In this document: positions 3,633-36,881 of the stretch, piece by piece
Layout: each line of letters opens with the position of its first letter
Position numbering within the stretch: position 1 is the stretch's first letter
Assembly: GCA_023245895.1 (NCBI GenBank)
Contig: JAHFJJ010000004.1
Span: 26,714 to 66,477, forward strand
From: Candidatus Doudnabacteria bacterium
Lineage (GTDB): Bacteria > Patescibacteriota > Doudnabacteria > UBA920
Length of the DNA stretch: 39,764 nt
Reading direction: 5' to 3'
Program-made: the position numbers and the translations under genes
Notes under the pieces: model-generated
The model's input: only the letters and a program-made list of their open reading frames with translations
Database searches by the model: none
What the model was told of the DNA's origin: nothing

Positions 3633-4394
3633 ATGAATGAAAAAATGTCCGCCGGAGGCGGATCCGCCTTTGGCGGACAAAAATTATCCGTAGTTATTCC
3701 CGCGTATAACGAAGCAAGCCGCATTAGCCACACTTTGCTGGCGGTAAGCGACTATTTAAAAAACCAGGCGTACGAGTACGAAATTTTAGTGGTCAACGAC
3801 GGCTCCAAAGACAACACAGCCGGGGTTGTTAGGGACTTAGAGCCATCAATACAGAATTTACATCTTATCGACAACAAAGAAAACCACGGCAAAGGCTGGG
3901 TAACCAAACAGGGCATGCTGGCGGCCACGGGCGATGTCCGTTTGTTTATGGACGCGGACAATTCCACGGCGGTTGATGAAGTTGAAAAAATGCTTCCCTT
4001 ATTTGACCAGGGTTATGAGGTTGTAATCGGCTCGCGCAGGATTCAGGGTTCGGTAATTACCGTCCACCAGCCGTGGTTTAGGGATTTTTTAGGCGGCGTG
4101 TTTAGGCTTATTGTCCATACTGCTGTCCCCATTGGCGTAACCGACTCGCAATGCGGTTTTAAAGCTTTTTCCGGCACAGCCGCGCAGGCGATTTTTCCCA
4201 AGCAAAGCATTTATAGGTGGGCTTTTGACGTAGAAATACTAGCCCTGGCCCGGAAAATGGGTTTTAAGCTTAAGGAAGTGCCCATAACCTGGATAAACGA
4301 TACCGAAAGCCACGTAAAACTTAGCGGCATGGTAAGCATGCTTGTGGAAGTTTTACAGGTCAGGCTGAATTTGTGGGCGGGAAAGTATAAATAA
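3633..4394 (+). CDS. GT2 family glycosyltransferase, polyprenyl/dolichyl-phosphate glucose synthase-like
   Basis: A 253-aa GT-A fold enzyme. LSVVIPAYNEASRI starts the nucleotide-binding half, VNDGSKDNT follows, the metal-binding DxD-type motif is MDADNS, and GSRR and QCGFKAF mark the acceptor half. This pattern matches the DPM1/dolichyl-phosphate beta-glucosyltransferase branch, which loads a sugar from a nucleotide donor onto a membrane polyprenyl phosphate. There is no C-terminal membrane domain, so it should act peripherally at the membrane. Residues 5-16 (MSAGGGSAFGGQ) are encoded by a GC-rich palindrome that looks inserted just after the start codon. The gene has its own TATAAT and lies between an epimerase and exported enzymes, fitting a role in surface glycan synthesis. 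Donor and acceptor cannot be read from the sequence. Confidence 0.85.
   Translation: MNEKMSAGGGSAFGGQKLSVVIPAYNEASRISHTLLAVSDYLKNQAYEYEILVVNDGSKDNTAGVVRDLEPSIQNLHLIDNKENHGKGWVTKQGMLAATGDVRLFMDADNSTAVDEVEKMLPLFDQGYEVVIGSRRIQGSVITVHQPWFRDFLGGVFRLIVHTAVPIGVTDSQCGFKAFSGTAAQAIFPKQSIYRWAFDVEILALARKMGFKLKEVPITWINDTESHVKLSGMVSMLVEVLQVRLNLWAGKYK
3647..3678. repeat. TCCGCC palindrome inserted in the GT2 coding region
   Basis: A 32-bp near-perfect palindrome with GTCCGCC / GGCGGAC ends and a central GGCGGATCCGCC encodes SAGGGSAFGG near the N-terminus. A nearly identical copy lies at 12330-12359 in another gene. Confidence 0.85.
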
Positions 4395-4415
4395 TTATTT
4401 TTAATCTGAATTTTC

Positions 4416-6293
4416 TTGTTTAAAAAATTCTCAAAGCAAAAATGGAGAAAATTTTTCTTTACGGCAACGCTCCGCTTGCTGGTTTTATTTTTTCTCCTAA
4501 CGCCGGTTTTGCCTTTTGCCCCGGCATCGGCATCGGCATCGGAAGCAGGCGGGGAGTATGTTATTAAGCTTTCTAATACTGGAAATTACGGCAGGCTGTT
4601 GGATGTCGCGCAAAATATTAACAGGAAATTTTTAGGCAATAAAAATAGCCAATTCCAAAATATCTACACTTTTACTTCAGATTACGGGCCGACTTATCTT
4701 AAAATTTTTTTAGCGGGCAATTTCGATTATTTAGAACTACAAACAGGACTACAGGCGGATACGGTTTTTGTAAACGACCCCGGGTTTACTTCTGATGCCC
4801 AAAATACGGACAAGCAATGGGGGCTGGCAAAAGCGGGCTTTAGCGATGCCTGGCAAAAAACCACCGGCAGTGAAACTAATATTGTGGCAATTATAGATAC
4901 GGGCATTGACCAGACGCACGAGGATTTGCAGGCAATAAAATACCTTCCGGGCTTTAATTTTCTTTCCGGACAGGCAATCGCCCCTGGCACGGATTCTGAC
5001 GACAATGGCCACGGAACTTTAGTTACAGGAGTATTGGGCGCTACTGTTAACAACGGACTCGGGATAGCCGGCACCAATTGGAAAATTTCCGTTATGCCGC
5101 TTAAGACTTTGGATGCCTTAGGCAAGGGTAACGCTTCGGACTTGGCCCAGGCCGTGGTTTGGGCGGCTGACCACGGCGCGCAGTTTATTAATTTAAGCGT
5201 CGGAGGCGTTGGTTTTGGCCAAGACACAACTTTGGCAAACGCCATAACTTACGCCTTTAATAAAAACATTGTAATAGTCGCGGCCGCGGGAAACGACGTG
5301 GCGGTTACCGGCGGCAACTTGGACTTGAGCCCCGTTTTCCCCATTTGCGACGACAACAATTTTAACATGGTAATCGGCGTCGCGGCTACCGACCAGAACG
5401 ACACCAAGCCGGAATTTTCCAACTACGGCAAAAATTGCATAGACGTAACCGCGCCGGGCAAAAGGATACTTTCCACCATCAATTTTGACCCTTTAAGCAA
5501 AAAACCTTCCCGCAATTCTTATGCTTACGCTTCGGGCACTTCTTTGGCCGTGCCGTTTGTCGTGGGGGAGGCGGCGCTGATAAAATCTTTATACCCGCTG
5601 GCCACCAACATCCAAATCCGCGACCGGATAATTACCACGGCCGACCCTGTTGACAATTTAAGTTTGGTCCACTGCGGCGGCAGTTCCTGCCGCGGGCTTT
5701 TGGGCGCGGGCAGGGTCAATGTCTTTAAAAGTTTGCGGACCGCCATAGAGCCGGAATTTATGGAAGGCGACTTGGTAAAAGTTACCGACTTAAACGGCGA
5801 AGTCTACCAAATTGTCGGCGGGCAAAAAAGGCTTGTTTCGGCCTTTGTTTACAACCAGCGTTTTTCCGGCGCCGCTTTTAAAACCGGCGGCTTTAACCAG
5901 CTGTCAGCCTTTCCCGAAGGCCCATATGTAACTCCTACTGACGGGACTTTGGTTAAGTACGACAAAAGCCCGACAGTTTATATTATCCAAAGCGGCAAAA
6001 AATTGCCCCTGACTTACGCCGTATTTCAGCAGAGGAAGCTGAGCTTTGCGGGCATTGGCACGTTGAGCTTTCCGGAAATGGACTCCTGGCTTACAGGCAA
6101 CTTTTATCCGCCGGCCGAAGGTACGCTGCTGAAAACCGCGCGCAGCAAAACCGTCTATTGGGTTATTGGCGAAGTTTTGCATCCAATTAATTATAATTTT
6201 TTTGCCTACAAGGGCTTGGGTATTTTTCCAATTTTGACGGTTCCGGACAAAGACATTGAGGGCTTTGCCAAAGGCGAAGCGTATATTAGGTAG
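4416..6293 (+). CDS. Exported subtilisin-family (S8) serine peptidase with C-terminal surface repeats
   Basis: 625 aa. The basic start (KKFSKQKWRK) and hydrophobic core (LRLLVLFFLLTPVLPF) ending near ASASAS form a signal peptide. The catalytic triad of S8 peptidases is intact: Asp161 in IIDTGID, His199 in NGHGT and Ser376 in SGTSLAVP, with NLSVGG and AAAGND supplying the usual oxyanion and substrate strands. After about residue 450 there are three copies of a roughly 45-residue repeat of the form GTLVK-x(5,8)-VY-I-x3-GK-x-P. The same repeat occurs in the next gene, so both proteins are probably displayed on or bound to the same surface structure. Translation starts at TTG 4416, the only initiator placed before the signal peptide; no Shine-Dalgarno is seen, and TAATCT 8 nt upstream could be a -10 box. 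Confidence 0.88.
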   Translation: MFKKFSKQKWRKFFFTATLRLLVLFFLLTPVLPFAPASASASEAGGEYVIKLSNTGNYGRLLDVAQNINRKFLGNKNSQFQNIYTFTSDYGPTYLKIFLAGNFDYLELQTGLQADTVFVNDPGFTSDAQNTDKQWGLAKAGFSDAWQKTTGSETNIVAIIDTGIDQTHEDLQAIKYLPGFNFLSGQAIAPGTDSDDNGHGTLVTGVLGATVNNGLGIAGTNWKISVMPLKTLDALGKGNASDLAQAVVWAADHGAQFINLSVGGVGFGQDTTLANAITYAFNKNIVIVAAAGNDVAVTGGNLDLSPVFPICDDNNFNMVIGVAATDQNDTKPEFSNYGKNCIDVTAPGKRILSTINFDPLSKKPSRNSYAYASGTSLAVPFVVGEAALIKSLYPLATNIQIRDRIITTADPVDNLSLVHCGGSSCRGLLGAGRVNVFKSLRTAIEPEFMEGDLVKVTDLNGEVYQIVGGQKRLVSAFVYNQRFSGAAFKTGGFNQLSAFPEGPYVTPTDGTLVKYDKSPTVYIIQSGKKLPLTYAVFQQRKLSFAGIGTLSFPEMDSWLTGNFYPPAEGTLLKTARSKTVYWVIGEVLHPINYNFFAYKGLGIFPILTVPDKDIEGFAKGEAYIR

Positions 6294-6297
6294 CGCA

Positions 6298-6374
6298 GGA
6301 TATTAGATATTAGGATATTTGATATTGTGCTTATTAGTTTCTAATATCCAATTTCCAATATCAGTCAATATCTA
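6298..6374. repeat. Iterated-word inverted-repeat spacer 2 (GATATTAG words)
   Basis: GGATATTAG (6298-6306) pairs with CTAATATCC (6341-6349), and TAGATATT (6305-6312) with AATATCTA (6367-6374). The rest consists of variants of the same word. The array ends 4 nt before the next ATG. Confidence 0.85.
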
Positions 6375-6378
6375 AACC

Positions 6379-8238
6379 ATGGTACATACACCAAAATTTA
6401 CAAAATATATTAGCGTAATTATTTTATTGACGCTGCCGCTATCCGCCCTTGCCCAGCCGCCCGACCCCGCGTTTAACCCCAACCGGCTTGTTGAGGATAA
6501 GGTTTTTTCTGACGTTGAAACTTTTGGCGGGGCCGCGGGAGTACAAAAATTTTTGGCGGATAAAAATTCGGTTCTGGCGAATACATCTTATGACTTTTTG
6601 GTAAAGTTAAAGGAGCCGCAAGCCTTGGAGTTAAAACAAGCTTTAGACGACCCACAGCCTAATTTAGGCAGGCTTCGCACCGCCGCGGAATTAATTTGGG
6701 ACGCGTCTGTCCAAAGCGGCCTTAACCCGCAGGTAATTTTGGTTACTTTAAATAAAGAGCAGGGGCTTATTACTTCGGCTAACGATTTTAACGCGGCCAA
6801 ATTGCAAAAGGCTTTAGACCGCGCCATGGGTTTTGACTGCCCGGACGGCTCGGGTTGCGGCGACTTATTTCCCGGCTTTTACTATCAGCTTTTCGGCAAT
6901 TACGACTCCGCCGGCAACCGCTATTTAGGCGCGGCAAAATCTCTAATGAAATCTTTTTCCACCCCGGGCGGCCGGGGGCCGATTGTAAACGGCCAGCCAG
7001 CCCGTACCGATAGTAGCATCACGCTAGATAATACTTTAGGCGGCTACGACAACATACTTTCACAGCAAAGTGTTACCTTGCTCAATAACGCCACTGCGGC
7101 GCTTTACCGCTACACCCCGCATGTTTTTAACGGCAACTATAATTTTTGGAAATTTTTCCAGGGCTGGTTTAAGTACCCCAATGGGAGCTTGCTTAAACTT
7201 TCATCCGGCAGTGATGTTTATATTATCCAAGACGGCCTAAAGGCTTTGGTGCCCCAGTTCGTGGCGCAGGCCAGAGCCCTTAATCTGTCCAATATAATTA
7301 CGGTTTCGCCCACGGAGTTTGGCAATTACACAACAGACAAACCCCTGGGGCCGGCGGACAATACCATTGTGGCAATCCCGGGCGAGGCTTCCAAGTTTGT
7401 TTTTATAAGTAATACCCGCCATCAGGCATCTGATTTAGTTATTTCCCAGCGCGGGCTTAATCCAAAAAATACTTTGGTAATTTCCGCAAGCGAAGCCGCG
7501 CTATTTGATGTGGGGACTGTCCTGCCGCCCAAAGACGGGACAATTATCCGCGGCGCGGCCGACAAGTCGGTGTATCTTGTAGATGGCGGAAAAATAAAAA
7601 TGTACAGCGCGTACACTTTTGCCCAGAATAAAATTATTGCCAGGCAAATTGTTATTGTTCCCGATGCTGAAGTCGCAAGCTACTCCCAAAACGGTTTTGT
7701 GCCGCCTAAGGACGGAAGTTTAGTTAAATCGTCCTCTGACAGTACAGTCTACCTTGTTCAAAGCGGGCTAAGACAACCGGTGCTGGGTGATGTCTTTAAA
7801 AACCGCGGCTTTAGCTTTAAGCAGGTTGTAACCGTTTCCTCGGACGAGTTAAACGCCCTGGCTATGGGTTTGTTTGCCGCGCCCAAAGATTATACTTTTT
7901 TTGCAACAGGCGCCAAGGCCGGGCCCGTTTTTGAATTTAAAGACGGAGCGGCCCATTCGGTATCACCCTACGTAGCCAAACAGCGCGGCATAAAGCCGGA
8001 CTACGTTTTTGATTCCGATGTTGTCTTATCCTGGCTTACGGGTATACCAGTGCCTCCCAGGGATAATACCATTTTAAAAGGCGACGCCAGCGACGCCGTG
8101 TATCTCGTAACAAAAGGCCAGTTGCGCCCGCTAACCTACAAAGCCTACCTAAACCGCAAAATCACGCCCAAGAAAATTGTAACCCTGCCCCAAAGCGAAG
8201 TTGACGCTTATGCAAAAGGGGATGCTATAGAAAAATAG
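6379..8238 (+). CDS. Exported lysozyme-like protein with C-terminal surface repeats
   Basis: 619 aa with a short signal peptide (basic start, VIILLTLPLSALAQ). Residues about 100-260 resemble the lysozyme/glucosaminidase-like domain of secreted actinobacterial proteins: NPQVILVTLNKEQGLIT carries the likely catalytic Glu, and the domain ends in YRYTPHVFNGNYNFWKFF. From about residue 265 onward come about seven copies of the 45-55-residue repeat (DGxLVK...VYLVxxGxxxPV...V...G) also present in the preceding subtilase. Inference: it cleaves or binds peptidoglycan or another surface glycan and is held at the envelope by its repeats. It is separated from the subtilase only by an iterated-word spacer, so the two are probably co-expressed. 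Confidence 0.75.
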   Translation: MVHTPKFTKYISVIILLTLPLSALAQPPDPAFNPNRLVEDKVFSDVETFGGAAGVQKFLADKNSVLANTSYDFLVKLKEPQALELKQALDDPQPNLGRLRTAAELIWDASVQSGLNPQVILVTLNKEQGLITSANDFNAAKLQKALDRAMGFDCPDGSGCGDLFPGFYYQLFGNYDSAGNRYLGAAKSLMKSFSTPGGRGPIVNGQPARTDSSITLDNTLGGYDNILSQQSVTLLNNATAALYRYTPHVFNGNYNFWKFFQGWFKYPNGSLLKLSSGSDVYIIQDGLKALVPQFVAQARALNLSNIITVSPTEFGNYTTDKPLGPADNTIVAIPGEASKFVFISNTRHQASDLVISQRGLNPKNTLVISASEAALFDVGTVLPPKDGTIIRGAADKSVYLVDGGKIKMYSAYTFAQNKIIARQIVIVPDAEVASYSQNGFVPPKDGSLVKSSSDSTVYLVQSGLRQPVLGDVFKNRGFSFKQVVTVSSDELNALAMGLFAAPKDYTFFATGAKAGPVFEFKDGAAHSVSPYVAKQRGIKPDYVFDSDVVLSWLTGIPVPPRDNTILKGDASDAVYLVTKGQLRPLTYKAYLNRKITPKKIVTLPQSEVDAYAKGDAIEK

Positions 8239-8256
8239 TTATCCACAATAGGTTTG

Positions 8257-8283
8257 TTGACATAAGGTGGACGATAGTATACT
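8257..8283 (+). promoter_or_regulatory. Promoter of the Bro-N gene
   Basis: A perfect TTGACA (8257-8262) and TATACT (8278-8283) are separated by 15 nt, 8 nt before the ATG. The -10 lies inside the palindrome AGTATACT, and a related TAGTAT follows, which could form an operator. The short spacing suggests a weak or regulated promoter. Confidence 0.65.
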
Positions 8284-8291
8284 ATTGTAGT

Positions 8292-8924
8292 ATGACTGAA
8301 ATTCAACAAATTGCCCTATTTAAAGGTAAGGAAATTAGGAAAACCATTTATAATAATGAGTGGTGGTTTTCAGTTGTAGATGTATGCGGCGCTTTAACTG
8401 ATAGTTTGGACTCCGGAGCCTATTGGCGAAAACTAAAGCAAAGATTAATAGAGGAAGGCAGCGAGGTCGTGACATTTTGTCACGGACTGAAATTAGCCGC
8501 TTCCGACGGCAAGTACTACGAAACCGATTGTGCCAACACAGAAGGCATTTTTAGAATTATCCAGTCTATCCCGTCTCCTAAAGCCGAACCTTTTAAACGT
8601 TGGTTGGCTAAAGTTGGCTACGAGCGCGTTCAGGAAATTGAAGATCCGGAATTGGCAACCAAAAGGACTAGGGCTTTGTATAAAGCTAAGGGTTATAGCG
8701 ATGCCTGGATAGAAAAACGCATGCGCGGCATTGCCGTGCGCGACGAGTTGACCAATGAGTGGAAGCAAAGGGGAGTAAAAGAAGAAGTTGAGTACAAAAT
8801 TTTAACCGCGGAAATTTCCAAAGCTACCTTTGGGATGACACCCGGCCAGTATAAAAAATTCAAAAACCTTAAGCGGGAAAATTTGCGCGACCATATGAAC
8901 GACCTTGAGCTGATCAACAAATAA
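8292..8924 (+). CDS. Bro-N (BRO family N-terminal domain) antirepressor-like protein, probably C-terminally truncated
   Basis: 210 aa. The N-terminal part (IALFKGKEIRKTIYNNEWWF..VVDVCGALT) is a Bro-N DNA-binding domain as found in phage antirepressors. It continues into the DinD-like region (FKRWLAKVGYERVQEIEDPE, YKAKGYSDAWIEKRMRGIA). Family members I know continue past DHMNDLELI with a conserved C-terminal segment of about 70 residues; here the frame reads DHMNDLELINK and stops, so the end appears lost. Established: Bro-N proteins are common in phages and mobile elements and often act in repressor control. No phage structural gene lies nearby, so this is a single-gene remnant or domesticated regulator. 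It has a strong, possibly self-regulated promoter. Confidence 0.8.
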   Translation: MTEIQQIALFKGKEIRKTIYNNEWWFSVVDVCGALTDSLDSGAYWRKLKQRLIEEGSEVVTFCHGLKLAASDGKYYETDCANTEGIFRIIQSIPSPKAEPFKRWLAKVGYERVQEIEDPELATKRTRALYKAKGYSDAWIEKRMRGIAVRDELTNEWKQRGVKEEVEYKILTAEISKATFGMTPGQYKKFKNLKRENLRDHMNDLELINK

Positions 8925-8951
8925 ACTACTTTCAAATAAGGCAATTTTTGC

Positions 8952-8957
8952 TATACT
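8952..8957 (+). promoter_or_regulatory. -10 box placing the transcript start at the aminotransferase ATG (leaderless)
   Basis: TATACT ends 6 nt before the ATG at 8964, so transcription should begin at or next to the start codon. No Shine-Dalgarno is present. Confidence 0.55.
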
Positions 8958-8963
8958 TAAATT

Positions 8964-10145
8964 ATGGATACAAGACAAAAGGACAAAAAATATCTGGGCC
9001 GTGACGGAAGTTTTCGTGATGTAGAAGTTACTAAGGCTAAAGGCAGTTATGTTTACGATGCGCATGGTAAAAAGTACATAGATTTTTATATGGGCTGGTG
9101 CGTGGGGAATGTCGGCTGGGGTGTTGATGAAATAGTCAGACAGATTAAAAATTTTAACGGGCCTGACTATGTAAGCCCCATGTATTTTTATAAGCCTTGG
9201 GCCGAATTGGCCGAACTGCTTGCAAAAATTACTCCCGGAAAGCTGGTTAAAAGTTTTCGCGCCACGGGTGGGACCGAAGCGGTAGAAATTGCCTTGCAGG
9301 CCGCCATGGCTTATACCAAACGTTCTAAGTTCATTTCTATTGAAGGCAGTTATCACGGGCATTCAATTGGAGCCATGAGTATTGGGGCGTCAGATTTTAG
9401 GGGATGGTATAAGAACTTACTTCCTGATTGCCATAAAATAAAGCCGCCGCTTGACAGAGTAGCCGCGCGCGAAGTTGAGAAAATCCTAAGTAAGCGCGAC
9501 GTTGCGGCCTTTATCGCGGAGCCTACCATTTGCAACCTGGCAGTTGTTATTCCGACAAAAGAATTTTTTAATATTGTCCAAAAAGCCTGTAAAAAGTACG
9601 GAACGCTTTTTATTGCGGATGAGGTGGCCACAGGTTTTGGCAGGACCGGCAAGATGTTCGCCTGCGAGCATTATGGCATTGAGCCTGACATTATGTGTTT
9701 GGCAAAAGGTTTAACCGGCGGTTTTGGCGCGTTAGGCGCGACTATTATGACAAATGAAGTCGCCAAATCTATGGAATTTGGCTTTAGTTTTTATTCTACC
9801 TTTGGCTGGCATCCCCTAAACGTGCACGGAGCAATCGCCAATATTAAATACCTTTTAAAAAATAAAAAAGAATTTTTAAAGAATGCAAATGACTTGAGCT
9901 TTTATTTTAAAGAACGTTTAGAAAAAATGCCCTTCCGGTATCCGGCAGAAATTAGGGCCCAGGGGTTGGCAATTGGCGTAGAATTTACTAAAAATGGCTA
10001 TAGCGACGCAATCATAAAAAAAGCCATGGGCAAAGGCTTGCTGATTGCCGATGCTAAACCTAATACTTTCATTATTTATCCGGCCATAAATATTTCACGG
10101 TCTGTCGCAAAACAAGGCTTGGATATTCTGGAAGGCTGTCTCTAA
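8964..10145 (+). CDS. Class III (PLP-dependent) aminotransferase
   Basis: 393 aa, full length for fold-type I class III aminotransferases. ATGGTEAVEIALQAA binds the PLP phosphate, SYHGHS is the aromatic stacking region, DEVATGFGRTG carries the Asp contacting the PLP ring nitrogen, and LAKGLTGG carries the Schiff-base Lys. The family includes acetylornithine, 4-aminobutyrate, diaminobutyrate and glutamate-1-semialdehyde enzymes; the sequence does not let me choose between them. The gene stands alone with a probable leaderless transcript and ends in a bidirectional terminator facing reverse-strand genes, so the context gives no pathway. Making an amino sugar or amino-acid precursor for the envelope is possible but only a guess. 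Confidence 0.85.
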   Translation: MDTRQKDKKYLGRDGSFRDVEVTKAKGSYVYDAHGKKYIDFYMGWCVGNVGWGVDEIVRQIKNFNGPDYVSPMYFYKPWAELAELLAKITPGKLVKSFRATGGTEAVEIALQAAMAYTKRSKFISIEGSYHGHSIGAMSIGASDFRGWYKNLLPDCHKIKPPLDRVAAREVEKILSKRDVAAFIAEPTICNLAVVIPTKEFFNIVQKACKKYGTLFIADEVATGFGRTGKMFACEHYGIEPDIMCLAKGLTGGFGALGATIMTNEVAKSMEFGFSFYSTFGWHPLNVHGAIANIKYLLKNKKEFLKNANDLSFYFKERLEKMPFRYPAEIRAQGLAIGVEFTKNGYSDAIIKKAMGKGLLIADAKPNTFIIYPAINISRSVAKQGLDILEGCL

Positions 10146-10172
10146 TTGGTTTTTAATAAAGCAAAAAAATTC

Positions 10173-10203
10173 AAAGCACCTCAACCATCGGTTGAGGTGC
10201 TTT
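10173..10203. terminator. Bidirectional terminator between convergent genes
   Basis: A perfect 14-bp stem (10173-10186 with 10190-10203) has a 3-nt loop. An A-rich run upstream gives the T-tract on the reverse strand. It serves the aminotransferase and the reverse-strand M23 peptidase. Confidence 0.85.
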
Positions 10204-10212
10204 AAGTAAGGT

Positions 10213-10749
10213 TTACAGCGAATCAGTTGTAGGTACATCCGTCGGAATAACGATGCCTTCCAGGTTTGCTTTGGTGTGCAGGTAATCCATATTCGGCACC
10301 GGGTAGCAAATATAGATGGTTGGGCTGTTTTTGGATTTTACGACTTTGGCTTGGTTCATAGGTTCTCCTTCCCAGTTGAATTTTTCTGGGTCTATAAAAT
10401 TATTAATGTTGTTTAAATCTAAATTATTTTTGCTAATGTCCAAATGCAGGTGCGGGCCGGTGCTGGCGCCGGTATTGCCGGTTCTGGCTATAAGCTCGCC
10501 TTTTTTACAGCTGCCGACTTTAATGAATTGGTCTAAATGCAAAAAACGGATTACTATAGGCTGGTTGTCCGGCCTAAAGTGGATGGTCTTGCCGCCCTGC
10601 GGCCCAAAGGCCGTAGTTACAGTGCCATCAAAAGGCGCGAACAGCTTGTTGAAGTCCGCGGTATAGTCCGTGCCCAAATGGAAACTGCTGTAAAAGGTGG
10701 GTTGTCCAAAAGTGTAGCCGCCTATTTTTCTTTGGTTGAGTGGAAACAT
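10213..10749 (-). CDS. M23/LytM-family metallopeptidase without signal peptide
   Basis: 178 aa. The LytM zinc site is visible as HLGTDY (first His and Asp) and HLHLD (HxH), with the fold-typical APFDGTV and GELIARTGNTG strands between. Established: M23 enzymes cleave peptidoglycan cross-bridges or stem peptides. No signal peptide or membrane segment is visible at the start (MFPLNQRKIGGY), which is unusual for an envelope enzyme; export by another route, or action during lysis as in phages, is possible. After the catalytic domain is a segment with VKSKNSPTIYICYP, resembling the first half of the surface repeat of the 4416 and 6379 genes. It is the last of three reverse-strand genes that all touch the cell envelope. 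Confidence 0.85.
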   Translation of the reverse strand: MFPLNQRKIGGYTFGQPTFYSSFHLGTDYTADFNKLFAPFDGTVTTAFGPQGGKTIHFRPDNQPIVIRFLHLDQFIKVGSCKKGELIARTGNTGASTGPHLHLDISKNNLDLNNINNFIDPEKFNWEGEPMNQAKVVKSKNSPTIYICYPVPNMDYLHTKANLEGIVIPTDVPTTDSL

Positions 10750-10789
10750 ATATTAAAATATTAGCGGATTTAGGCTTAAAGTCAAGTTG

Positions 10790-11224
10790 CTATTTATTGA
10801 AAAAGTAAATTATAAAAATGCCGGAAAAAACCAGGACTCCTCCGACTATTGTGGCGGTTGTGAGCTGACTTTCTTTAAACAGCAAGTAGGCGAATAGGGC
10901 AATAAACAGGGGATAGGAGATTTCTATCAGCCCCGCGAGCGTGGCGTTTTTGTTTGTAATGGAAAAAGCAATGCACAAATCAGCGGCTATAGCCGTGGCA
11001 ACGCCGCCTGCTAAAAGCCACATAAGTTTTTTGGATTGGAATATGGCCTGAAGGTCAGGTTTAATCTTTCCGGAAAATACAGAAAGGAAAAGCATTGCAA
11101 AAAACATTATTAGGCAGACAATCCACAAGCTGGTTGCCACTGAAATTTTTTTATATATCTGTTCAAACAAAACATAGCTTAGCCCCCAAAGTATGGACGC
11201 GCTTAAAGCAAATATAATCCACAT
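10790..11224 (-). CDS. EamA/DMT-superfamily half-size transporter
   Basis: 144 aa with about five hydrophobic helices: residues 1-18, 30-52, 69-90, 97-115 and 122-141. The sequence has the EamA pattern (ILWGLSYVLFEQIY at the start, GGVLVFSGIFIIYFF at the end). Full DMT transporters have two EamA repeats in 300 residues; this is one repeat and, like EmrE-type or other short members, would work as a dimer. The substrate is unknown. It starts 5 nt downstream of the transglycosylase stop on the same strand, so the two are co-transcribed. Confidence 0.8.
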   Translation of the reverse strand: MWIIFALSASILWGLSYVLFEQIYKKISVATSLWIVCLIMFFAMLFLSVFSGKIKPDLQAIFQSKKLMWLLAGGVATAIAADLCIAFSITNKNATLAGLIEISYPLFIALFAYLLFKESQLTTATIVGGVLVFSGIFIIYFFNK

Positions 11225-11228
11225 AAGT

Positions 11229-12629
11229 TTATGCCTGCTGGTCGTTAAAATACTGGATGACTTTGTAAATTTTAGCCAAATAGTTTACTGTTTCGTTCCT
11301 TAGGCTTCCGGTTTTTAGTTCGTTTAACTGGTTAGTTGCTTCTGCCAACTGTGCTTGCAGGGCGGCTTTTATTTTTTTATCTTTAGCTTTTTTTATTTGC
11401 GAAGTTAAGCTGTTTACCTGCGCCTGGGTGGCATTAAGCTGTCCGCTCTTGTCCTCGTTCCAGCTGGTGCCAAAAGCGTTTACGGCCCTGGCTACACGCG
11501 TGGTGCCGCCGTTATAACTTGCGGCGCCGTAATCAAACACCCGGCTGGAAACAAAACCCAAAGAAGCTTTAACGCGCACTGCCCCGGCGTAATCATCTAA
11601 TAATAAATACATGGCTTTAATGGAGTTTTGGTGGTCGGACATGCCTTCCAGAAAGTCGGGGATTAGCCCGACTTCACCACGGCGTTTAACCAGGCTTTGG
11701 TAAGTGGATGGGATGAATTGGGCAATACCGCGCGCGCCGGCCGTGCTGACGCTGTACTTATAGGCGTCGCCTTCGTTTACAGCCAAAAGAATATTTAGCT
11801 GGTTAATGGTGGCCTGGGTGTCGTTGCCGTTTAGCACCTGCGCAGTATCAGTATGTTCTGCGTAAACCAGGGCTTTAATCATTGCCGGCGGAATGGCTTG
11901 CGTAATAGTTTGTCCGGGTATGGCCTGCGAAGGAATATTTTGCAGTTGGAGTGTCACACTATTTATTATATTGTTCAAATAATCCGAGCCGTAAGCAATT
12001 ACATCCGGCGCGCTTAGCGAGTCGGAGTAGGGGACATACACGGCTTCGGATAAGCCTTTTTCTATGGCTGATTTGCTGCCTGACTCTTTTGCGCTTATTA
12101 AATATTTTAAGGCAATTATTTTCCCGTTCGCGGGCGTATTAACTTGGAATTTGCTGTTGACGCCGTTAAATTTTGTTAGTTTAACATCCACCGCGGGATC
12201 CGGGAAAGTCATGGACTTTCCGTTTAGCCTGCCTATGGTAATAATTGTCCTAGCCGTGGCCGGGTCTAAAATAGCAAGCGCAATGTCTTTACTGCCCAGG
12301 TTGTACCTTAAAAGCGTTTTGGTATTTTTTCCGCCTGAGGCGGATCCGCCTTTGGCGGATTTGTAAACCGGAATAAGCGCGTGGTTTAAAGTGGTTGTGG
12401 AAAGGAGGGCTTTGGCCTCTTTAATTTGGTTTATGATGGGCGGAATAAGCGGCGTTTGTAAACCCAGAACGCTGGCCGGGGTTGAAGACGCCAATTCGGG
12501 AGCTTGCCCTGTACCGGAGCCATTCGATGGCGACTGGTATAGGGTTGATGTTGCTTCTTGGGCAAAAGCAGTGCTGGAAAATAACGTAATTCCGACAATG
12601 ATTGAGCATAAGGATTTTATTTTTTCCAT
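11229..12629 (-). CDS. Exported lytic transglycosylase-like (SLT domain) protein
   Basis: 466 aa with a signal peptide (MEKIKSLCSIIVGITLFSSTAFAQ). The N-terminal half is not recognised. The C-terminal half has transglycosylase SLT features: ALVYAEHTD, with the candidate catalytic Glu, GARGIAQFIPSTY in place of the usual GxxGxxQ-P-T motif, and AASYNGG. A coiled-coil-like Q/A/K-rich stretch (LNATQAQVNSLTSQIKKAKD onward) and a helical tail follow. Established: such enzymes cleave the MurNAc-GlcNAc bond of peptidoglycan. A TCCGCC palindrome (12330-12359) is inserted in frame and encodes SAKGGSASGG at about residue 91. It heads a three-gene reverse-strand unit with the EamA protein and the M23 peptidase, suggesting wall remodelling. 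Confidence 0.8.
   Translation of the reverse strand: MEKIKSLCSIIVGITLFSSTAFAQEATSTLYQSPSNGSGTGQAPELASSTPASVLGLQTPLIPPIINQIKEAKALLSTTTLNHALIPVYKSAKGGSASGGKNTKTLLRYNLGSKDIALAILDPATARTIITIGRLNGKSMTFPDPAVDVKLTKFNGVNSKFQVNTPANGKIIALKYLISAKESGSKSAIEKGLSEAVYVPYSDSLSAPDVIAYGSDYLNNIINSVTLQLQNIPSQAIPGQTITQAIPPAMIKALVYAEHTDTAQVLNGNDTQATINQLNILLAVNEGDAYKYSVSTAGARGIAQFIPSTYQSLVKRRGEVGLIPDFLEGMSDHQNSIKAMYLLLDDYAGAVRVKASLGFVSSRVFDYGAASYNGGTTRVARAVNAFGTSWNEDKSGQLNATQAQVNSLTSQIKKAKDKKIKAALQAQLAEATNQLNELKTGSLRNETVNYLAKIYKVIQYFNDQQA
12330..12359. repeat. TCCGCC palindrome inserted in the transglycosylase coding region
   Basis: A 30-bp near-palindrome, nearly identical to 3648-3677 but read from the other strand relative to its host gene. 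It still gives SAKGGSASGG, because length and phase keep the same frame in both orientations. Confidence 0.85.
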
Positions 12630-26992: not shown

Positions 26993-27262
26993 ATGTATTT
27001 AAATAGTTTGTCAAACGGTAATCAAGACTTAGGGAAGTCTGGCACAAATCAAAAAGAAGTTATTGAACTTGAGGGCAAAGTAATAGAAAATTTGCCTAAT
27101 GCTATTTTTCGTGTCCAGTTAGATTCAGGCCAAACAGTCATGGGCCATTTGGCCGGTAAAATGCGCGTTAACATGATACGCGTAATGCCAGGCGACCGCG
27201 TCGTTATAGAAATGACGCCCTATGATTTAACCAAGGGCAGGATTACCAGAAGGATGAGGTAG
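26993..27262 (+). CDS. infA: Translation initiation factor IF-1 with N-terminal extension
   Basis: 89 aa; the S1-like OB-fold core begins at about residue 21 ([19 protein letters not shown]) and carries the family motifs [26 protein letters not shown] and GRITRR. IF-1 is normally about 72 aa, so about 17-20 polar residues ([17 protein letters not shown]) are added in front. It binds the 30S A site during initiation. It opens the operon behind its own promoter, with a leader of only a few nt and no Shine-Dalgarno. The ATG at 26993 is the only Met start before the core. Confidence 0.93.
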
Positions 27263-27384
27263 TAATCGCGAATATACGAATCAGTATTAATATACAAAAT
27301 TTTGATTTGTAACGCGTTAAATTCATTAAAAAATTTACAGTCCAGCGGTTTGTATATTAATTAAAATTTGTATATTCGCGATTA
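27263..27384. repeat. Large inverted-repeat spacer 6 between infA and rpmJ
   Basis: TAATCGCGAATATAC (27263-27277) pairs perfectly with the inverse at 27370-27384, with an inner AATATACAAA/TTTGTATATT match. The left arm starts on the base after the infA stop; the right arm ends 4 nt before the rpmJ ATG. Confidence 0.9.
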
Positions 27385-27388
27385 CTAT

Positions 27389-33617: not shown

Positions 33618-34012
33618 GCTTTAAGCAAATCGAATAATCGCTTTTTACGGTAGTAATACTGTAAAGGGAGGAAAGTCCGAACACTTGTTTGATACCCTCA
33701 TATGAGTTATCAAAACTGGTAGCGGGTAATTCCCGTCGGGAGTAATCCTAGAGGTGCGAACAGAAACGACCGATGCCGAAAGGCTAGGTAATCCCCTTAA
33801 AAGGATTGACCCCGCAGTAATGCGGGGGTGAAACGGCCAAATCCTTACTTGAGTGCAAGACCAAATTTGGTAGGTTGCTTGACCGTCCTGGCAACAGGAA
33901 CGGCAGATAGATGATTATTTTCGCTAACTATAATTTATTTTATAGCAGCGATCCGCCATAGCTTTAGCGACGGCGGAAGAAACAGAATTCGGCTTATGAG
34001 TTTGCTTAAAGC
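33618..34012 (+). ncRNA. rnpB: RNase P RNA, type A-like, lacking P15-P17 and with a two-hairpin insertion
   Basis: Helix P1 is GCTTTAAGCAAA (33618-33629) with TTTGCTTAAAGC (34001-34012). P2 is AATAATC (33633-33639) with GATTATT (33913-33919). P3 is a short hairpin (33647-33662). Conserved cores are seen: GGAGGAAAGTCCG (5' strand of P4), GAACAGAAACGACCGATG, GTGCAAGACCAAAT, GGTAGGTTGCTTGA, the P18 hairpin and ACAGAATTCGGCTTAT (3' strand of P4). Compared by memory with E. coli M1 RNA, CCAAAT joins GGTAGG almost directly, so P15, P16 and P17 with the CCA-binding GGU loop are missing. Between P2 and P4 (33920-33981) about 60 nt form two hairpins where E. coli has a few nt. The RNA processes tRNA 5' ends with protein RnpA. 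Confidence 0.92.
33952..33977. repeat. TCCGCC...GGCGGA palindrome inside rnpB
   Basis: TCCGCC (33952-33957) pairs with GGCGGA (33972-33977) around ATAGCTTTAGCGAC. It is preceded by AGCGA, giving AGCGATCCGCC, the same 11 nt as in the element at 16175. It forms the second hairpin of the rnpB insertion. Confidence 0.7.
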
Positions 34013-35645: not shown

Positions 35646-36881
35646 ATGAGAATAGCTATCGCTCACGACTCCTTTACCCAAATGGGAGGCGCGGAAAGGG
35701 TTGTGGACGCACTGCACGAACTTTTTCCCGAGGCTCCTGTTTTTACTTTAGTCTTTGACCCGAAATTTAAGGAAAAATATAAAGGCTGGGACATCCGCAC
35801 TTCCGCGCTCCAAAGCCTTTATCTGGCTTTAGGTAAACTGCAATATCTTTTGCCGTTAATCCCCTGGGGCGTGGATAATTTAAATTTTGAGGGCTTTGAT
35901 GTTGTGCTATCTTCATCTTCGGGTTTTATAAAAAACATCCGCGTCCCTAAAAATTGCGTACATATAAATTATTGCCATACGCCCACCAGGTTTTTGTGGC
36001 AGGACGAAGGCTACTTACGGCAGGAAGTCCCAAAATATCTTTTACCGCTTGCAAGGATAATCCTCGCCCGTATGAAAAAATGGGATTATAAAAGCGCCCA
36101 AAGGGTTGCATATTTTATTGCAAATTCCCAGGAAGTCCAAAAGCGCATAAAAGATTATTATAAGCGTGATAGCCAGGTAATTTATCCTTTTGTGGATATT
36201 GAATTCTGGAAATCTAGTTTGGGTGTCATCCCGGAAGACTTGAGTGCATCCGAAAGGCTGTCTGGGATCCAGCCCTCGGATTCTGGATCCCAGAGCTCTG
36301 CCGATGCATTCGGCCGGGACGACACACATAAGTATTTCCTTTTAGCGGGCAGGCTCCAGGCGCATAAAAAAAACGATTTAATTATTAAAATATTTAACGA
36401 CTTAAATATTCCTTTGTATGTAGTAGGAACGGGTAGGCAGGAAAATTACCTTAAATCAATTGCTAAGCCCAACATAAAGTTCCTGGGCAGGGTTTCCGAT
36501 GAGCGCCTTCGTAATGAATATAGCGGCGCTAGGGCGCTTTTATTCCCGCAGGTTGAGGACTTTGGCCTTATGCCCCTGGAAGCCGCGGCTTGCGGCACGC
36601 CAACTCTGGCGTACGCGAAAGGCGGGGCTTTAGAAACCGTGGTTTCGGGGATAACAGGAGAATTTTTTGGTCCAAGCGTAGTTGCTCCATTTATGGAGCC
36701 CCATGAGCCTGGTGAATCAGGCAACTACACTTTGAAAGAAGAAATTAAAAAAATAATTTTAAATTGGGACGCAAAAAAATACCAGCCGGAGGACTTGCGT
36801 AGGCAGGCGGAAAAGTTCAGTAAAGAAAAATTTAAGACGGAAATTTTAAATTTTATCAAACAGCATGCAAGACCCTTATAA
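35646..36881 (+). CDS. GT4 family glycosyltransferase carrying two in-frame palindromic-element insertions
   Basis: 411 aa. GT4 features: MRIAIAHDSFTQMGGAERVV at the start, CHTPTRFLWQ, FIANSQEVQKRIKDYY, FLLAGRLQAHKKNDLIIKIF and the donor-site VEDFGLMPLEAAACGTP. Between the two GT-B domains, residues about 193-227 are encoded by a GTGTCAT...GACAC palindromic element (36223-36325), just where homologues go directly from the strand to the AGRL motif. Near the C-terminus a 51-bp REP-like element (36678-36728, exactly 17 codons) encodes VVAPFMEPHEPGESGNY. Both keep the frame open. The catalytic motifs are intact, so the enzyme is probably functional. The last 17 nt overlap the next gene. Confidence 0.88.
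   Translation: MRIAIAHDSFTQMGGAERVVDALHELFPEAPVFTLVFDPKFKEKYKGWDIRTSALQSLYLALGKLQYLLPLIPWGVDNLNFEGFDVVLSSSSGFIKNIRVPKNCVHINYCHTPTRFLWQDEGYLRQEVPKYLLPLARIILARMKKWDYKSAQRVAYFIANSQEVQKRIKDYYKRDSQVIYPFVDIEFWKSSLGVIPEDLSASERLSGIQPSDSGSQSSADAFGRDDTHKYFLLAGRLQAHKKNDLIIKIFNDLNIPLYVVGTGRQENYLKSIAKPNIKFLGRVSDERLRNEYSGARALLFPQVEDFGLMPLEAAACGTPTLAYAKGGALETVVSGITGEFFGPSVVAPFMEPHEPGESGNYTLKEEIKKIILNWDAKKYQPEDLRRQAEKFSKEKFKTEILNFIKQHARPL
36223..36325. repeat. GTGTCATCCC...GGGACGACAC palindromic element inside the GT4 gene
   Basis: Outer arms GTGTCATCCC (36223-36232) and GGGACGACAC (36316-36325) are inverse with one mismatch; inner arms CTGGGATCCAG (36262-36272) and CTGGATCCCAG (36283-36293) are exact. GATGCATTCGG is shared with the spacer element at 16164-16322. 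Confidence 0.85.
36678..36728. repeat. REP-like GTAGTTGC element inside the GT4 gene
   Basis: GTAGTTGC (36678-36685) and GCAACTAC (36721-36728) are exact inverses and match the ends of the intergenic element at 1760-1811. The inner hairpins CTCCATTTATGGAG and CCTGGTGAATCAGG keep the shape but changed bases in pairs. Length 51 bp, a multiple of three. Confidence 0.9.

Follow-up and report, generated by a model that had tools for sequence, protein, structure and literature searches.

Several families of small, symmetric repeats are known to enter or lie between genes. The Rickettsia palindromic elements (RPE) are palindromic repeats of 105-146 bp, specific to Rickettsia, that reside in frame in conserved genes as well as in intergenic regions, and the one host protein tested, guanylate kinase, remains active (PMC2229807). 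REPINs are inverted pairs of REP units, which are extragenic and found beside RAYT genes (PMC3116915). Mitochondrial GC clusters, double-hairpin elements and repetitive hairpin-forming elements are small GC-rich hairpins in an AT-richer genome whose units merge, shuffle and occasionally insert in genes; the yeast GC clusters have AG or ACT repeat flanks and lie mostly between genes (PMC4478555, PMC2800124). Finally, PARCELs are dyad-symmetric coding repeats that have spread horizontally over distant taxa (PMC2996958).

A preliminary description of a 39,764-nt stretch of DNA (the window) from a Candidatus Doudnabacteria relative had reported a near-palindromic 30-mer in two genes and likened it to RPE. 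The observation is correct, and it is much larger than first reported. Copy 1, TCCGCCGGAGGCGGATCCGCCTTTGGCGGA (positions 3648-3677, plus strand), comprises hairpin A (3648-3662, loop GGA) and hairpin B (3663-3677, loop TTT) and is translated as SAGGGSAFGG in a plus-strand gene for a family 2 glycosyltransferase (GT2; 3633-4394; Pfam PF00535, E=4e-29). Copy 2, TCCGCCTGAGGCGGATCCGCCTTTGGCGGA (12330-12359, minus strand), lies in a minus-strand gene for a lytic transglycosylase (SLT) domain protein (11229-12629; Pfam PF01464, E=2e-6), where the gene-strand reading TCCGCCAAAGGCGGATCCGCCTCAGGCGGA encodes SAKGGSASGG (residues 91-100), N-terminal to the SLT domain (residues 280-387). Both 30-mers and both peptides are as originally given; dinucleotide shuffles put their chance expectation at 0.00, and the window contains no third copy with up to three mismatches allowed. 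The opposite orientation reported for the pair says little, since the element reads almost identically on its complementary strand.

The window has other repeats and RNA features. A 27-nt inverted copy pair, AAGTGTAGTTGCCTGATTTATCAGGCT (1756-1782 and 36706-36732, 93% identical), has an internal GCCTGAT/ATCAGGC hairpin and possibly represents a second small dispersed repeat family. A 131-nt direct repeat (1-131 and 256-386, 97% identical, 255 nt apart) is located at the margin of a gene for a DUF11 protein, an intergenic 39-nt inverted repeat (27260-27298 and 27349-27387, 87%) surrounds a 50-nt spacer, and a class A RNase P RNA of 391 nt (33622-34012) compares with a 367-position model.

The genome that holds the window (1.14 Mb, 41 contigs) contains 19 exact 30-nt dyads, 23 when other stem sequences are allowed (free stems), and 85 exact 15-nt half units, while a reversed control pattern had no match in it. 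Among the 19 exact copies, 14 are in long open reading frames (ORFs) and 13 of these 14 share one phase. Four single 15-nt units of this genome with TTA/TAA loops (L077:3841-3855, L077:6737-6751, L078:9933-9947 and L089:11699-11713) occupy the center of a longer intergenic repeat, tgtcattgcgag-[unit]-cgacgaagcaatc, and look either nested in that repeat or like a constituent of it. The core sequence GGCGGATCCGCC appears in six open-access papers, none of them devoted to a repeat of this kind judging by title or abstract, and the open-access literature searched yielded no account of a comparable element from Patescibacteria.

The consensus of the copies is TCC-SSS-RRA-SSS-GGA followed by TCC-SSS-TYY-SSS-GGA, i.e., two abutting 15-nt hairpins. 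When eight genomes were searched with TCC..GGATCC..GGA only, nearly all matches took the form of two hairpins, and the stems GCC, CGC, GGC, CCC and ACC occurred in free combination, heterotypic pairs included. Over 42 distinct rows, 98.6% of cells are paired in the two-hairpin fold, compared to 85% in the full palindrome and 22-51% in slid controls, and 54 cells carry two-sided pair changes in the two-hairpin fold, a value that none of 500 shuffles attained. The search pattern left the three inner pairs of each stem free, the outer stem bases were fixed by most patterns, and the covariation tallies copies, not independent events. An unconstrained scan for tandem perfect 6-bp hairpins returned 167 with zero gap and 3-nt loops, some of them with changed outer pairs, versus 5 in shuffled DNA for all gap and loop classes together. 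Judged from these variants, the structural unit is a tandem of two predicted 15-nt hairpins; each stem varies independently of the other, and its base changes are compensated. The palindrome originally taken as the unit is real as the inserted 30-mer; as the conserved structure we dropped it in favor of the double hairpin with exchangeable stems, since the long pairing is disrupted in copies with mixed stems. In the common homotypic copies, the thermodynamically more stable fold is that of the full 30 nt (copy 1, -24.6 vs. -18.7 kcal/mol for the double hairpin).

The first hairpin mostly has an RRA loop and the second a TYY loop, each being the reverse-complement type of the other; the hairpin pair is therefore inverted, as in REPINs. 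Loop-loop pairing between the hairpins modestly exceeds that of shuffles (Watson-Crick, p=0.02). At the start codon of one lipoprotein gene, the stems are GCC in genome G000 and CGC in G008, and G001 has just one hairpin, with a CGC stem. No Rfam match overlapped a dyad at the 20 loci searched for structured RNAs.

Twelve further host fragments besides the window genes were searched for empty sites and aligned. Clean 10-codon gaps with the flanks kept were seen in orthologues of GT2, dinB, rluD, pnp, eamA (the orthologue compared being 86% identical) and a membrane-protein gene. GT2 orthologues aligned over the site start with M-[K/Q/N/T]-KLSVV and lack exactly these 10 codons: the relatives have M directly before a KLSVVIPAYNE-like sequence, where this genome reads M-SAGGGSAFGG-QKLSVV. 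The empty site is GAATTT^AAA in dinB and TTY^AAR in rluD. No target-site duplication was detected, as empty sites differ by the 30 nt only and the flanks are not repeated. The preferred target, WTN^RA, i.e., (T/A)T(T/C/G)^(A/G)A, is identical in intergenic copies; coding copies have T at -2 in 77%, A at +2 in 91% and A/G at +1 in 96%. At the level of aligned sequences, these comparisons show blunt insertion between WTN and RAN without target-site duplication, a feature of MITEs that the element lacks.

Insertion as first proposed is clean in several genes, but some copies, including that of the lytic-transglycosylase gene, were exchanged for a small number of codons in a variable linker. The net gain versus orthologues is 15 nt in gyrA, ~18 nt in pyrG, ~24 nt in rplR and 6 nt in the SLT gene, so trimming or template-switch replacement also occurs. 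In the nine relatives with SLT-gene orthologues (49-67% identity), the site is a linker of variable length, and the nearest orthologues have eight different residues there. Copies are scattered and mostly not common to relatives; a few are shared among congeners and thus inherited, namely those in rplR (G000, G002 and, decaying, G003), gyrA (G000 and G002) and rluD (G000 and G006). At the rluD insertion site of G009 (L284), we found TTTT-GGGGGATCCCCCGAAGAGGGA-AAAAA, in which GGGGGATCCCCCGAAGAGGGA looks like what is left of a dyad that had a different stem and has lost part of its first half.

About 75% of the dyads are genic, 118 of 157 lying in long ORFs (gene calls were based on ORFs). Of the 91 copies in ORFs of 200 codons or more, 82 are in phase 0, which reads SAxGGSAxGG, whereas the target preference of intergenic copies predicts 44% from target bias alone (p=2e-20). 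Copies in the other two phases, which read PPxADPPxA or RxxRIRxxR, exist. Given this observed bias, we infer that selection against the other phases is its simplest cause. Confirmed host families are rplR, gyrA, pnp, pyrG, gpmI, atpD, tsaD, eno, pheT, cysS, dnaJ, rsmH, pyrE, ruvX and yvcK, of which rplR, gyrA, pyrG, atpD, cysS, pheT, tsaD and eno are essential. Two genes hold two dyads each, both in the Gly/Ser phase: pheT at L101 (1,020 nt apart) and dnaJ at L186 (105 nt apart).

Sites in linkers and N-termini, with at least four copies received by dnaJ G/F regions, could also be expected if original protein linkers had converged on Gly/Ser through loop tolerance. This reading is contradicted by the empty sites and the orthologues without the peptide, and further by an identity that extends to the nucleotides, on either strand and in genic and intergenic copies alike, and by the phase 1 and 2 copies; we give it practically no credence. 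Distant orthologues lack the peptide, so the finding that would have refuted an insertion, the same peptide in distant lineages, did not materialize. Upheld likewise was the idea of an inserted element with a length divisible by three that reads SAxGGSAxGG from either strand and is tolerated in genes.

Beyond this genome, half units are present in 37 of 49 genomes of the order, and a scan of GTDB genomes found at least 117 stretches with the element, in many Patescibacteria groups. Non-Patescibacteria among the matches listed include Omnitrophota, Kiritimatiellae, Lentisphaerae, Auribacterota, Firestonebacteria, Margulisbacteria, Ignavibacteria, Chloroflexota, Zixibacteria and Deltaproteobacteria. 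The hosts are groundwater bacteria and uncultured phyla. In other Patescibacteria, Kiritimatiellae/Lentisphaerae, Omnitrophota, Ignavibacteria and more, the element is multicopy, with free-stem counts of up to 61 (Kiritimatiellae) and 68 (Lentisphaerae) per genome. Every named genome is a metagenome bin, and some odd-phylum records could be misbinned contigs, which would suit an assembly artefact or bin contamination. However, loops and stems vary from copy to copy, the Kiritimatiellae and Lentisphaerae bins hold the 61 and 68 copies, and Ignavibacteria copies exactly split an NYPNPF-NPTT motif, which we take to be that phylum's own conserved C-terminal secretion motif. We regard an artefact as scarcely conceivable, and treat the repeat as a genuine genomic element.

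In some of these genomes the element is carried inside longer repeats. Four Kiritimatiellae dyads (L097:4587-4616, L097:6408-6437, L118:7325-7354 and L161:7925-7954) adjoin ttgtcattccgagcgtag repeats, with near-identical flanks at several places, and have been amplified within this larger repeat. Pairs of dyads ~5 kb apart in Firestonebacteria had suggested the ends of a 5-kb transposon; this was dropped because these copies lie within a more extended intergenic repeat where contigs break. Carriage by phages was rejected as well, with one match in 2.9 million viral contigs.

Single-strand insertion of the IS200/IS605 type uses a short specific target and leaves no target duplication, and the element fits both features. 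This would agree with a REPIN/BIME-type doublet, in which inverted REP units are mobilized in trans by a RAYT (Y1, IS200-like) transposase. The inverted hairpins, told apart by loop type, resemble inverted REP pairs (PMC3116915), and Y1_Tnp genes occur in 15 of 20 relatives. Yet none of nine Y1 loci has a TCCGCC hairpin within ~1.5 kb flanks (one has a CCCGCC/GGCGGA half unit), and the window's genome, with the most copies, yields one weak Y1 match (E=2.7e-5). Copy number and Y1 show a Spearman coefficient of -0.14 within the genus and 0.41 (p=0.08) over 20 genomes, and G019 has 25 half units without any Y1 match. Moreover, REPs are extragenic, in contrast to the mostly genic element. Without a TCCGCC unit at the Y1 loci or a correlation at genus level, RAYT is not supported as the mobilizer, and we consider a REPIN/BIME-type origin unlikely.

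We instead consider it very probable that the window 30-mers are copies of a non-autonomous miniature mobile element of two abutting 15-nt hairpins with opposite loop types, filtered by selection, although no insertion has been seen in action and no mobilizing enzyme identified. The empty sites show that the element inserts bluntly between WTN and RAN, without target-site duplication. As stems change while pairing is kept, we infer that the copying machinery probably recognizes a folded single strand; empty sites, blunt insertion, target and fold-level conservation indicate a non-autonomous element recognized, at this inferred step, as folded single-stranded DNA. Selection would then filter the genic insertions, such that copies in the SAxGGSAxGG phase may survive, mostly in loops, linkers and N-termini, and other phases are mostly lost.

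A copy directly behind a start codon would place a stable hairpin within the initiation region. In GT2, the ATG equivalent to the orthologues' start codon (3645-3647, plus strand) abuts copy 1, and an extra in-frame ATG (3633-3635, plus strand), absent from orthologues, lies 12 nt upstream of it, so that the hairpin is at +16. This arrangement recurs: among the 21 start-adjacent copies in real genes, 20 are preceded by a second in-frame ATG, located at -12 (17 copies) or -15 (3 copies) from the ATG that touches the element, and the exception, L233, has a GTG at -15. The single hairpin of G001 has an ATG at -12 too. The hairpin thus begins at nucleotide 16 or 19 of the coding sequence. As background, ATG occurs at codon 5 in 1 of 357 other genes; the 20 cases are not all independent, as some are homologous genes or neighbors. 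For eno, ruvX, yvcK and atpD, the family profile sets in immediately after the element. The inner ATG corresponds to the start of the GT2, eamA and lipoprotein orthologues, and insert-free orthologues, where checked, lack the upstream ATG.

From this association we infer that selection moved initiation upstream of the hairpin: start-adjacent copies would be retained where the gene has another in-frame ATG 12-15 nt upstream of the abutting one, so that the hairpin begins just beyond the initiating ribosome. A ribosome footprint accounts only in part for the sharp -12 spacing, as it would permit larger distances too. A bolder reading gives the hairpin a positive role: in the Doudnabacteria order the element may have been domesticated as a translation-start module, ATG-N9-ATG-double hairpin, in which the +16 hairpin marks or tunes the upstream start. 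In the lipoprotein gene, the arrangement is kept across genera while the stem sequence changes, and the +16 position matches the +13 to +17 range at which hairpins downstream of a start codon assist its selection by eukaryotic ribosomes (PMC2001202). We offer domestication only tentatively, as a minority possibility.

The recurrence of ATG-N9-ATG-hairpin across genes and genera, together with stem covariation, might also suggest that regulatory RNA or terminator hairpins were recruited gene by gene through selection and are not mobile DNA. Most copies, however, lie deep within genes, and insertion is blunt at a fixed target, with scattered copies mostly not common to relatives, leaving this alternative improbable in our view. 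A transcription terminator was excluded separately, as the TTT-hairpin-AAA flanks have the opposite polarity to an intrinsic terminator.

On the tests made, the mobile element that we propose resembles an RPE in its behavior and a REPIN or double-hairpin element in its architecture, but belongs to none of them. The parallel to RPE first drawn holds for in-frame insertion in conserved protein-coding genes, with intergenic copies besides, and fails for length (30 nt, by the exact gap versus orthologues), sequence and host, given its occurrence in Patescibacteria, Kiritimatiellae, Omnitrophota, Ignavibacteria and others. Two hairpins, an exact blunt target and one dominant phase further set it apart. 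With REPINs it shares two inverted hairpin units, dispersed and non-autonomous, but not the linkage to RAYT genes or the mainly extragenic location, and its 15-nt units have no spacer. Like mitochondrial double-hairpin elements, it consists of small GC-rich hairpins, set in a more AT-rich genome, with recombining units, as the heterotypic stems indicate; all copies, however, are in bacterial genomes, not organelles, and the mitochondrial accounts, as far as consulted, report no phase bias (PMC4478555, PMC2800124). PARCELs are likewise dyad-symmetric coding repeats across distant taxa, but form 25-residue tandem arrays in amphipathic domains, whereas this element occurs as single inserts in housekeeping genes (PMC2996958).

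The element illustrates how mobile DNA can exist in compact, gene-dense genomes, by being open in nearly all frames, symmetric and encoding an inert linker. To our knowledge, it would be the smallest in-frame mobile element described in bacteria. In uncultured phyla, it is present in ribosomal protein L18, gyrase, ATP synthase, enolase and aminoacyl-tRNA synthetases, and therefore structure models and start-codon annotation must allow for it. The start-adjacent copies, finally, are a natural experiment on the distance from a bacterial start codon at which a hairpin is permissible.
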